Below, piece by piece: positions 19,729 to 38,655 of a stretch of DNA of 38,655 nucleotides. Position 1 is the stretch's first letter; each line of letters starts with the position of its first letter. A program made the translations under genes and the position numbers. Origin of the DNA: a virus; the IMG/VR virus record IMGVR_UViG_3300045258_000159, positions 1 to 38,655 of that record; one strand, written 5' to 3'. The notes beneath the pieces are model-generated. The model was not told where the DNA came from. It did not search any database and was given only the letters and a program-made list of their open reading frames with translations.

Positions 19729-19983
19729 CTACACCCCTCGGTCGCGCGCAAGCTTGGCGGCTTCGTCGACGATCCCATACCTGATTCGGATCCCGCTCGC
19801 AGCCCGACGGCCGATCCCCGTTTCGCCGCTGAATTGGTCGATTGCTTTCACGATGGCGGCGTCGCCGCCAGGGTCGAATGATGCGAGGCGTCCAAGTTCA
19901 AACAGGAGCATGTTGGTCGTGATCCCGCACTCGCTCGCGAGCTGGCTGGCGGTTGGCTCTTCGATAAGGCTGGATTTCGGCAT
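19729..19983 (-). CDS. Small protein of unknown function, possibly HTH
   Basis: The ATG at 19983 has GGAGG eight bases upstream and gives 84 residues; an upstream TTG in the same frame lacks such support. The N-terminal part (EEPTASQLASECGITTNMLLFELGRLASF) has a helix-turn-helix-like rhythm. The rest is helical with ETGIGRRAASGIRIRYG. It may be the first gene of the late minus-strand unit. The function is unknown. Confidence 0.6.
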   Translation of the reverse strand: MPKSSLIEEPTASQLASECGITTNMLLFELGRLASFDPGGDAAIVKAIDQFSGETGIGRRAASGIRIRYGIVDEAAKLARDRGV

Positions 19984-20199
19984 GGGTTGGACCTCCAAAT
20001 TTCGACGGTGGGCCGCGATCTTCGGAGCGTATGGCTACGGAGTCAAGTGGGGTGGAGATCGTCGCAGCGTCCGAGGCTGGCTCATTTGTGCGCGTTTGTG
20101 GGGGCAGGGTTCGGGTCTGGTTCTGTGGTCAGGCGCATTGCGCCCTGCCGTGAACGCCGTCACGCCACCCATCATGTAACTACTACAGAGTCTTCTATT

Positions 20200-20211
20200 C
20201 TCTCGGGAGAG
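20200..20211. repeat. Short palindrome CTCTCGGGAGAG
   Basis: A 12-bp inverted repeat (CTCTC-GG-GAGAG) lies in the 332-base stretch between the minus-strand genes at 19729-19983 and 20316-20801. It could be an operator or stem near a promoter of the late unit. No clear -10/-35 pair was found beside it. Other parts of this stretch hold no gene I can support. Confidence 0.3.
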
Positions 20212-20263
20212 TCAGAATCTAGGGAAGGGAACCTGCAACTCTCTGCGGTGCATCCTTGTGCGA

Positions 20264-20323
20264 CCGAGTGACCTCCCATTGCACCGTAGGTCATGACCTC
20301 CCATTGCACCGTAGGTCACTCGG
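20264..20323. repeat. Two abutting 25-bp palindromic repeats (candidate iterons or operator)
   Basis: Positions 20269-20293 and 20294-20318 are identical 25-bp units placed head to tail with no gap. Each unit begins TGACCT and ends AGGTCA, so each is an inverted repeat around a CCCATTGCACCGT-type centre. The pair is framed by CCGAGTGACCT and AGGTCACTCGG, an 11-bp perfect inverted repeat across the full 60 bases. The element overlaps the end of the winged-helix gene at 20316. Such arrangements are typical of sites bound by dimeric DNA-binding proteins, for example replication iterons or operators. Confidence 0.65.
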
Positions 20324-20801
20324 ATGGCGTGCGCGGGGCGGGCGTCTGCTCGCGCAGGAGCTTCATCTCGCCCCCGACCCAGTCCTTCGGCTTCGAGATA
20401 TGGATGCGGATTCCCGCCTTCGGGGCGTAGCCCGGAAACCGCTGGACCGTGACGTAGCCCTGGGCTTCGAGGCGATGGAGCCACGCCCGGGCGGTGCGCT
20501 CGTCGACGTGCTCCATGATCGCCAGGGTCGAGATCGTGACCCGGCGCCGGCCGTAGACCCATGCGGATTTGGGGGGTTTTCGATCCAGCAGGTTGAGGTA
20601 GAGGTGCCACGCCTCGCCGAGCTGCTTGCGGTGCTTGGGCTCGAGCAGGCCGCGGGCGAGGTCAACCTTCGTCCGGGAGAGCGTTTCCGCGGGAACGGCG
20701 CGCCTGCGCGGATCGCTCACGCGCGCCGGGCGCTTGACCGGGACGCGGCCATTCGGGTACGGTTCCGTCCGGGGTTCGGTGTCATGAGCACCAGCCTCCA
20801 T
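20316..20801 (-). CDS. Winged-helix DNA-binding protein (replication or control gene)
   Basis: The ATG at 20799-20801 gives 161 residues. After a basic N-terminal region, residues about 60-145 form a winged-helix pattern: KHRKQLGEAWHLYLNLLDRK, then TISTLAIMEHVDERTARAWL as the recognition helix region, and LEAQGYVTVQRFPG as the wing. This is the HTH_36/DnaD-like arrangement found in phage replication initiators and regulators. The gene faces the Xre-type regulator across a short divergent region, and its end overlaps two 25-bp palindromic repeats. A replication-initiator role is plausible but not shown. Confidence 0.7.
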   Translation of the reverse strand: MEAGAHDTEPRTEPYPNGRVPVKRPARVSDPRRRAVPAETLSRTKVDLARGLLEPKHRKQLGEAWHLYLNLLDRKPPKSAWVYGRRRVTISTLAIMEHVDERTARAWLHRLEAQGYVTVQRFPGYAPKAGIRIHISKPKDWVGGEMKLLREQTPAPRTPSE

Positions 20802-20812
20802 GCTCCAAGCCC

Positions 20813-20834
20813 GCGTCAAGTCACCACTTGGCGC
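20813..20834. promoter_or_regulatory. 22-bp imperfect palindrome in the divergent control region
   Basis: GCGTCAAGT and ACTTGGCGC are inverted repeats with one mismatch, separated by four bases. The site lies 12 bases upstream of the minus-strand winged-helix start and 40 bases upstream of the Xre-type gene. Such a position suits an operator bound by the neighbouring regulator and shared between divergent promoters. The identity of the bound protein is inferred. Confidence 0.5.
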
Positions 20835-20873
20835 GGGTTGTCTTTTGTTGTAGCGTCCCAGCCCAGCCCGATC

Positions 20874-21194
20874 ATGGGAGGGCCGTTGATCCGCACGAGC
20901 GCCTACTCGCTCGCGGAACTGCGAATCCAGCTCGGCGAAGCTCGCGGCGGCATTGTTGGAGCCGTCGCGGACAGACGAGGAAACCTGATGACCCAGACGG
21001 ATCTGGCCCGCGCGGTCGGAGTGACGCAGGCGCATATCTCAGCGATCGAGCTCGGGAAAGCACACCCGAGCCCCAGCCTGGTTGCGCGCCTCGCCGCCGT
21101 CTGGTCCGTCGACTCAACGACCGTGCGTTCGGCCGTTGTGGAAACCATCAGGCGCCGGAAGGCCAAAGAGCCGCAGCTCCGCGCGATTTTCTAA
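20874..21194 (+). CDS. Xre-family HTH regulator
   Basis: The gene gives 106 residues from an ATG without a strong ribosome site, suggesting weak or leaderless translation; an internal ATG at 20988 is an alternative. Residues about 38-75 have the classical helix-turn-helix MTQTDLARAVGVTQAHISAIELGK, followed by PSLVARLAAVWSVD. Such proteins are repressors or early regulators in temperate phages. It is the first gene of the plus strand and is transcribed away from the winged-helix gene. There is no C-terminal self-cleaving peptidase domain. Confidence 0.8.
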   Translation: MGGPLIRTSAYSLAELRIQLGEARGGIVGAVADRRGNLMTQTDLARAVGVTQAHISAIELGKAHPSPSLVARLAAVWSVDSTTVRSAVVETIRRRKAKEPQLRAIF

Positions 21195-21244
21195 GCCCCG
21201 CCACCCTACCCGATTTTCTGTCCCGCGCCATTTGTATTTTTCAC

Positions 21245-25416: not shown

Positions 25417-26121
25417 ATGGCGCGCGCCCTGATCCTCGATGAGATCGTGCTCAAGTACGGATCGCACGCACGGCCGCAGTCGGGGATGTGCGTCATGGAA
25501 GCCGCCGCCTACGTCGCCGGCGAGGAATTCTCCGATCACCCCCAGTGCGTCTGCCCGGTGATCGCCCGGTTCCTGCGCTCGTGGAATGACGCGCTGCCGG
25601 ACGACGAGACTCGGACGCGCCTGCTCAGGCCGCTGATCCCGGTGATCCTGAACACGCGCTCGACGGAGGCGGTCGAGATGCGGCGCTCGTGGATGGCCTT
25701 CGACTGGATGGTGCGCGAGTTCACGCCGACGTGGCTCGACCTCGTGGAAAGCTGTAAGCCGCACGCGGCGAACCTGCGCGCGCTGCCCGAGATCGACTCG
25801 ACCGGCGCGCTCGACCTGGCGCTCCCGGCGCTGCGCGAAGCGCAGCGCGCGGGGGCCGCAGCGCGGGCCGCAGCGTGGGCCGCAGCGGGGGACGCAGCGT
25901 GGGACGCAGCGGGGGACGCAGCGGGGGCCGCAGCGGGGGACGCAGCGCGGGACGCAGCGCGGGACGCAGCGCGGGACGCAGCGCGGGACGCAGCGCGGGA
26001 CGCAGCGCGGGACGCAGCGCGGGACGCAGCGCGGGACGCCCTCGCTCCGCCGACCGCTGCGCTGCAGCAGTCGGCGATCGCCCTGATCCACCGCATGGCG
26101 GCCGTGAAGGAGGTCGCGTGA
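25417..26121 (+). CDS. Phage protein with a variable Ala-rich repeat region
   Basis: The protein has 234 residues. Residues 1-140 (LKYGSHARPQSGMCVMEAAAYVAGE, CPVIARFLRSWNDALPD, MAFDWMVREFTPTWLDL) match a family common in actinobacteriophages and other phages. Residues about 145-208 are built from four-residue repeats such as AARD, AAGD and AAWD, encoded by 16 tandem 12-bp units. These would form a long charged Ala-rich helix. A short helix follows. Function is unknown. Copy number may vary because every unit keeps the frame. Confidence 0.8.
   Translation: MARALILDEIVLKYGSHARPQSGMCVMEAAAYVAGEEFSDHPQCVCPVIARFLRSWNDALPDDETRTRLLRPLIPVILNTRSTEAVEMRRSWMAFDWMVREFTPTWLDLVESCKPHAANLRALPEIDSTGALDLALPALREAQRAGAAARAAAWAAAGDAAWDAAGDAAGAAAGDAARDAARDAARDAARDAARDAARDAARDAARDALAPPTAALQQSAIALIHRMAAVKEVA
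25849..26040 (+). repeat. Sixteen tandem 12-bp repeats inside a gene
   Basis: The 192-base array is made of 12-bp units. Positions 25945-26028 hold seven exact copies of GCGCGGGACGCA, followed by an eighth that differs at its last base. The eight earlier units (25849-25944) vary at two or three positions. Each encodes four residues. The exact copies at the 3' end suggest recent expansion by slippage or unequal recombination. Confidence 0.9.
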
Positions 26122-27694: not shown

Positions 27695-28050
27695 GCAGTC
27701 TCCGCCAGAACGTCGCCCACCCCCGCGGCGAGGCGCAGCTGACGCTGTGGACGCCCGCGGGAAAGTACGAGGCGCAATACCTCGAACACCGCCGCGCGCA
27801 TCCGCAGGTCTTCGATGAGCTCGTGGCGGCGGCGCGGGAGGCGCGGGCGCGAGGATGGAAGAAGCTGGGCATTCGCGCGATCTGGGAGCGGATGCGCTGG
27901 CGGCGAGGTCCCAAGCCGCTCGACAGCGCGGGCTTCCACATGAACGACCACCTGACGGCCTACTACGCGCGCGAGATCGTCGCGAGCTGTCCTGACCTGG
28001 TGGAGATGTTCGAGCTGCGGACGAGGACCAACCCGGAGGAATCGGCGTGA
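27691..28050 (+). CDS. Early phage protein of a recurring unknown family
   Basis: The frame of 119 residues starts at a GTG overlapping the prior stop. The central part, ELVAAAREARARGWKKLGIRAIWERMRW, then FHMNDHLTAYYAREIVASCPDLVEMFELR, is a pattern I recall from small proteins of several phages, all helical with a conserved N-(x)4-AYYAR block. No function is known to me. Position suggests a role in DNA metabolism or host takeover. Confidence 0.65.
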   Translation: MSSLRQNVAHPRGEAQLTLWTPAGKYEAQYLEHRRAHPQVFDELVAAAREARARGWKKLGIRAIWERMRWRRGPKPLDSAGFHMNDHLTAYYAREIVASCPDLVEMFELRTRTNPEESA

Positions 28051-28583
28051 CCTGCATCGTTGCGATCAAGGACGGCGGCAAGGTGCACATGGGATGCGAC
28101 TCGATCGGGACGGACGGCTGGCGCAAGCAGGCGCGCACGCGGCCGAAGCTGTTCAAGAAGGGGCCGCTGCTCATCGGCTACTGCGGCAGCTTCCGGATGG
28201 CGGATCTGCTCGAGTTCAACCTCGACGTCCCGAAGCTCCTGCCGGATGAGGACCTGCCGACGTGGATGGTCAAGGAGCTCGTCCCGGCGGTGCGCACCAA
28301 TTTCAAGGAAGGCGGATACGCGACGAAGCACGACGACGCCGAGCGCGGCGGAGACTTCCTCATCGCGGTGCGCGGCCGCCTGTTCTGCATCGAGAGCGAC
28401 TATCAGGTCGGAGAGACGACGCGCGAGTACGCCGCTCTCGGAAGCGGCGAGCCATTCGCGATGGGATCTCTATTCGGGACCGAGGGCCGGGCGGTGCTCG
28501 ATCGTCTGCAAGTCGCACTCGAAGCCGCGCATGAGATGTGCGCGACGGTGGCCCCGCCGTTTCACTTCCTCGCGGAGGACTGA
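28047..28583 (+). CDS. Proteasome/HslV-like Ntn-hydrolase peptidase
   Basis: The gene encodes 178 residues from a GTG overlapping the upstream stop. After removal of the initiator Met, Thr becomes residue 1 (TCIVAIKDGGKVHMGCDS). Asp18 then becomes 17 and Lys34 (RTRPKLFKK) becomes 33, the catalytic Thr1/Asp17/Lys33 spacing of HslV and proteasome beta subunits. Later blocks LLIGYCGSF and YAALGSGEPFAMG match the family glycine loops. The length suits HslV (about 175). No HslU-like ATPase is visible, so it could use a host unfoldase or act alone on small substrates. Confidence 0.8.
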   Translation: MTCIVAIKDGGKVHMGCDSIGTDGWRKQARTRPKLFKKGPLLIGYCGSFRMADLLEFNLDVPKLLPDEDLPTWMVKELVPAVRTNFKEGGYATKHDDAERGGDFLIAVRGRLFCIESDYQVGETTREYAALGSGEPFAMGSLFGTEGRAVLDRLQVALEAAHEMCATVAPPFHFLAED

Positions 28584-38271: not shown

Positions 38272-38655
38272 CAGGGGATCCCGAGCAGCCAGACGTCGTA
38301 GATCATCTGGGCGCCGGTGAAGTTCGATAGGTAGAGCGAGGTAAACTGCGCCTGATAGGGCGCGTTCGTCAGCGAATCCGTGAGCGGGATCATCTTCCAC
38401 CGATCCAGCAGGCTAGTGAGCCGAACCGTCTTAACAGAACGCGCGCCCGTGCCGAGCGGGAACCACCAGCCGAGCGCGGTCGAGTCCGCCGTCGCCGACG
38501 AGTTCGCGCGCACGGCCAGCTCGAGGTAGCCCCCAGCCGAGAACGAGGCCGCCTTGATCCGGACCAGCGCGAACATCTGTCGGTAGGCGCTCGACTGGAA
38601 CGGGATCGCCGACGAGTCGTTCGCGGCCGAGGCCAGCGTGACGTTCGAGCGGTGG
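38268..38655 (-). CDS. Secreted tail-region protein, C-terminal part (continues from base 1)
   Basis: This open frame enters from base 38655 and ends with a TGA at 38268-38270. The same protein starts at base 230 across the junction. The visible residues include SNVTLASAANDSSAIPFQ, then FALVRIKAASFSAGGYLELA and SLYLSNFTGAQMIYDVWLLG, a beta-rich pattern like the capsid-adjacent secreted protein. The stop overlaps the start of the next gene by four bases. Function is unknown; see the N-terminal part at bases 1-230. Confidence 0.75.
   Translation of the reverse strand, partial: HRSNVTLASAANDSSAIPFQSSAYRQMFALVRIKAASFSAGGYLELAVRANSSATADSTALGWWFPLGTGARSVKTVRLTSLLDRWKMIPLTDSLTNAPYQAQFTSLYLSNFTGAQMIYDVWLLGIPW

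Follow-up and report, generated by a model that had tools for sequence, protein, structure and literature searches.

The late promoter P3 of phage GIL01 is activated by gp6, whose binding site is a palindrome centered at -43.5 (PMC6182141). In the replication origin of phage lambda, a 39-bp AT-rich region adjoins four iterons, and every iteron contains an 18-bp inverted repeat (PMC6022878). These are among the closest described systems for a 60-base block of palindromic repeats found in the window analyzed here, which is the whole stretch of 38,655 nucleotides and an entire virus record with the gene content of a tailed temperate phage; searches of the literature turned up no directly comparable element. 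The likeness to the gp6/P3 site of GIL01 (PMC6182141) consists of a palindrome upstream of late genes, together with small phage-encoded DNA-binding proteins. In contrast to that site, the block consists of two palindromes of 25 bp, each with a middle of 13 bp, that abut directly, and the binder and promoter proposed for it below are candidates. Like the lambda iterons (PMC6022878), it is built of repeated units with an internal dyad, and both an AT-rich stretch and a possible replication gene lie close by. However, it has two units rather than four, of 25 rather than 18 bp, and they lie at a stop codon rather than inside a gene.

Anatomy and setting of the block

The block reads CCGAG, then twice in direct succession TGACCT-CCCATTGCACCGT-AGGTCA, then CTCGG (Table 1). 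A preliminary description had reported two identical, abutting 25-bp units with TGACCT/AGGTCA ends, and its coordinates and sequence proved right to the base. The 11-bp inverted repeat that it saw framing the block is also present, although six of the 11 bases in each arm are unit ends and only CCGAG/CTCGG is new in the frame. Since these six bases per side belong to the units, frame and units constitute one feature. Most simply, the block can be described as one palindrome, with arms of 11 bp around a 13-bp middle, in which the inner 25 bp are doubled, and it would have originated when the core of such a palindrome was duplicated in tandem. The overlap with the 3' end of the winged-helix gene, likewise noted before, amounts to only 8 bp (20316-20323), comprising the stop codon (20316-20318, minus strand), the last codon and part of the preceding one.

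Table 1. Coordinates of the repeat block and of neighboring features in the window
Feature	Position	Strand	Description
Whole block	20264-20323		Two 25-bp palindromic units inside an 11-bp inverted repeat
Unit 1	20269-20293		TGACCT-N13-AGGTCA
Unit 2	20294-20318		Same sequence as unit 1
Left arm of the 11-bp inverted repeat	20264-20274		CCGAGTGACCT
Right arm of the 11-bp inverted repeat	20313-20323		AGGTCACTCGG; contains the winged-helix stop codon
AT-rich stretch	20172-20231		Second most AT-rich 60 bp in the window; candidate promoter (or melting) region
Weak promoter-like pair TTGACT-17-GAAGAT	20018-20046	-	8/12 match, ahead of the gene starting at 19983
First leftward gene past the gap	19729-19983	-	84 aa, no assigned function; presumed start of the structural operon
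Winged-helix protein	20316-20801	-	161 aa; MarR-like below cut-off; weak DnaD-like helicase loader match
Xre-type (HTH_3) regulator	20874-21194	+	Domain match; candidate binder

Simulations were used to judge how far this arrangement departs from chance. When the window was simulated 40 times with a first-order Markov model, no exact tandem duplication with a period of 15 to 60 appeared, and the longest match run at these periods was 14. The 11-bp inverted repeat is, by itself, not rare at the window's length and composition (one perfect repeat with a spacer of at most 60 was observed, versus one to three in each of 12 simulations), but the chance that an 11-pair dyad would be centered exactly on the tandem block is about 6e-7 (0.2725^11). 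The 25-mer occurs twice in the whole window, with no other occurrence at up to three mismatches. Degenerate copies of the unit, at the same tolerance, gave seven matches in the window, including both units, versus nine expected by chance, and those lying elsewhere were dismissed. An inverted 9/10 match to the unit middle (20243-20252) was also judged likely to be chance. The block is a real, non-random element of an ordinary kind, and it probably has a functional control role. Over the window as a whole, perfect inverted repeats of at least 10 bp with spacers of at most 60 were rarer than in first-order simulations (3 versus 4 to 12).

From 18.4 kb onward, the genes for terminase, portal, head and tape-measure proteins are read leftward, and an endolysin gene, also leftward, lies at 36 kb. 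Genes for a RecE-like exonuclease, a Holliday-junction-resolvase-like protein and a tyrosine integrase read rightward between 22 and 31 kb. Gene directions diverge near 20-21 kb, where the winged-helix and Xre-type genes sit. Between these two genes, at 20808-20849, there is a strong terminator-like hairpin (14 pairs and a 4-base loop, followed by GTCTTTTGTT) that reads rightward with no obvious rightward gene before it, and it may be the end of an unseen antisense or small transcript. The block covers the winged-helix stop codon and the edge of a gap of about 330 bp (19984-20315) that precedes the leftward gene at 19983, placing it upstream of the leftward structural genes and about 1.5 kb from the terminase genes.

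Elsewhere in the record, an HslV-family peptidase-like phage gene was found at 28047-28583 (phrog_1040). About sixteen copies of a 12-bp unit at 25849-26039 correspond to an alanine-rich repeat of the ARDA/AGDA type in a 234-aa protein without assigned function; its later copies are probably recent, since they do not differ from one another. When position 38655 is joined to position 1, a leftward reading frame stays open for about 220 codons across the junction, which suggests that the genome in the record may be circular or permuted and nearly complete; at 68% GC, the frame could also be due to chance.

A candidate operator ahead of the structural genes

Judged by its anatomy, the block is tentatively read as an operator or activator-type protein-binding site that controls the structural operon, a reading held with somewhat less than even confidence. 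It would act in cis within the temperate phage's control region, where each 25-bp palindrome would bind a dimer, which could be of the phage winged-helix protein, of the nearby Xre-type regulator or of a host protein, and two dimers would thus lie side by side with their centers 25 bp apart. The bound dimers would activate or repress leftward transcription of the structural operon from a promoter that may lie within the AT-rich stretch or just before 19983.

This operator reading is favored because the dyad is centered exactly on a perfect tandem duplication, and because the block borders the gap that immediately precedes the leftward structural genes; as a dyad-symmetric site in a regulatory gap, it has the form expected of an operator. 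It is favored, too, because the two 60-bp stretches with the highest AT content in the window match the two main promoter regions expected, and because two small DNA-binding proteins are encoded alongside the block. The AT-rich stretch beside the block is 57% AT in a 68% GC genome, a composition that is also expected of a promoter, and the most AT-rich 60 bp begin at 21231, ahead of the rightward early genes; by their composition, both stretches look like promoter regions.

Other observations weaken the operator reading. No further copy of the palindrome exists anywhere in the phage, and no clear promoter was found, the best leftward pair (Table 1) falling below the threshold of the promoter scan. 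Moreover, the half-site centers are 19 bp apart, which exceeds the spacing of most small dimeric regulators.

The match of the winged-helix protein to phrog_7498, a DnaD-like helicase loader family, is weak (E 1.8e-6, residues 48-124) and spans just the N-terminal winged-helix part of the 296-position profile. The single-sequence structural model had low confidence (mean pLDDT 42), with the order helix-helix-helix-strand-strand, and was too poor for a fold search. A search of solved structures with the protein returned nothing meaningful, and no relatives were found in the collections searched, where the single-protein scans detect close relatives only, since they require an exact short peptide.

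Autoregulation, replication and other explanations

The preliminary description saw in the block an arrangement typical of replication iterons or autoregulated operators; here, too, a palindrome bound by protein is the preferred reading, so that the earlier interpretation is partly supported. The second proposal fits poorly and was rejected: the winged-helix gene is on the minus strand, so that the block lies at its 3' end, about 480 bp from its start and away from its own promoter.

The iteron proposal came out weak. It leads to the second-ranked reading, an unlikely one, in which the block belongs to a lambda-type origin where the winged-helix protein, as a short initiator or helicase-loader-like protein, would bind the units as iterons and melt the adjoining AT-rich stretch. 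The phrog_7498 match and the lambda parallel of inverted-repeat iterons beside an AT-rich region (PMC6022878) are consistent with such an origin, and no other replication initiator was recognized among the scanned phage proteins. The preliminary description had named a change in GC skew and an AT-rich melting region nearby as origin signals; the AT-rich stretch, which would equally suit a promoter, lies about 33 bp from the block, and the skew makes no turn at 20 kb. Iterons are several direct repeats, usually three or more, and just two copies are present here even with up to three mismatches allowed. No DnaA box with at most one mismatch was found within 800 bp of the block (the nearest one-mismatch sites are at 21137 and 21237), although a DnaA box is not required in every phage origin. 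The position at a stop codon, outside the interior of the gene, and the restriction of the family match to the N-terminal part of the profile also argue against this origin.

Third, and also unlikely, the winged-helix transcript may end in an RNA hairpin that acts as a stabilizer, a processing site or a transcription end. The 60 nucleotides fold far better than shuffled sequences on both strands (z about -4.5) and are located exactly at the gene end, as a hairpin-forming sequence of an intrinsic terminator would be. However, the z value falls to -2.0 with 10 nucleotides of extra flank per side, and no known RNA family was matched in Rfam. An intrinsic terminator, a hairpin followed by a T-run, was rejected since the T-run is absent on both sides, and the block departs from such terminators also in its long interrupted middle. 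Half of the arm sequence recurs in the middle, where an RNA stem does not need it. The stop codon sits within the stem, which a terminating ribosome would therefore open.

It is improbable that the block is a functionless palindrome doubled by replication slippage. The copies are perfectly identical, which suggests a recent duplication, palindromes are known for their instability (PMC7999016), and no relatives show selection; nevertheless, the doubling is exactly in register with the dyad, and the block occupies one of the two main control regions. A packaging (cos/pac) or recombination site is very improbable, for although the terminase genes lie downstream of the block, several genes separate them from it, the tyrosine integrase is 9 kb distant and the record ends elsewhere than at the block.

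Searches for relatives and the meaning of the element

The unit, the tandem and the frame, in exact and degenerate forms, were absent from the viral collection, and a search of the genome collection for one degenerate form of the unit found none. Phage and plasmid records gave only weak DNA matches (E 2-8), which were set aside as chance. The portal and terminase proteins had no close relatives among viral contigs, and the best portal matches in phage records were 22-27% identical. One candidate, L003, encodes a RecE-like exonuclease 46% identical to that of this phage, and it was rejected as an instance of the same layout since its upstream genes differ and it holds no such block. The absence of matches marks the phage as isolated within these collections and is not evidence that the element is unconserved.

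In a lineage isolated in this sense, the block might represent a compact switch or origin, with a short winged-helix protein that stands alone and recognizes the doubled 25-bp palindrome located at the stop codon of its own gene, but we consider this improbable. If the block is not a site that switches on the structural genes, it would be an ordinary control element in which a duplication occurred recently. If it is such a site, the lytic switch of a lineage without a close relative in the searched collections would lie here.
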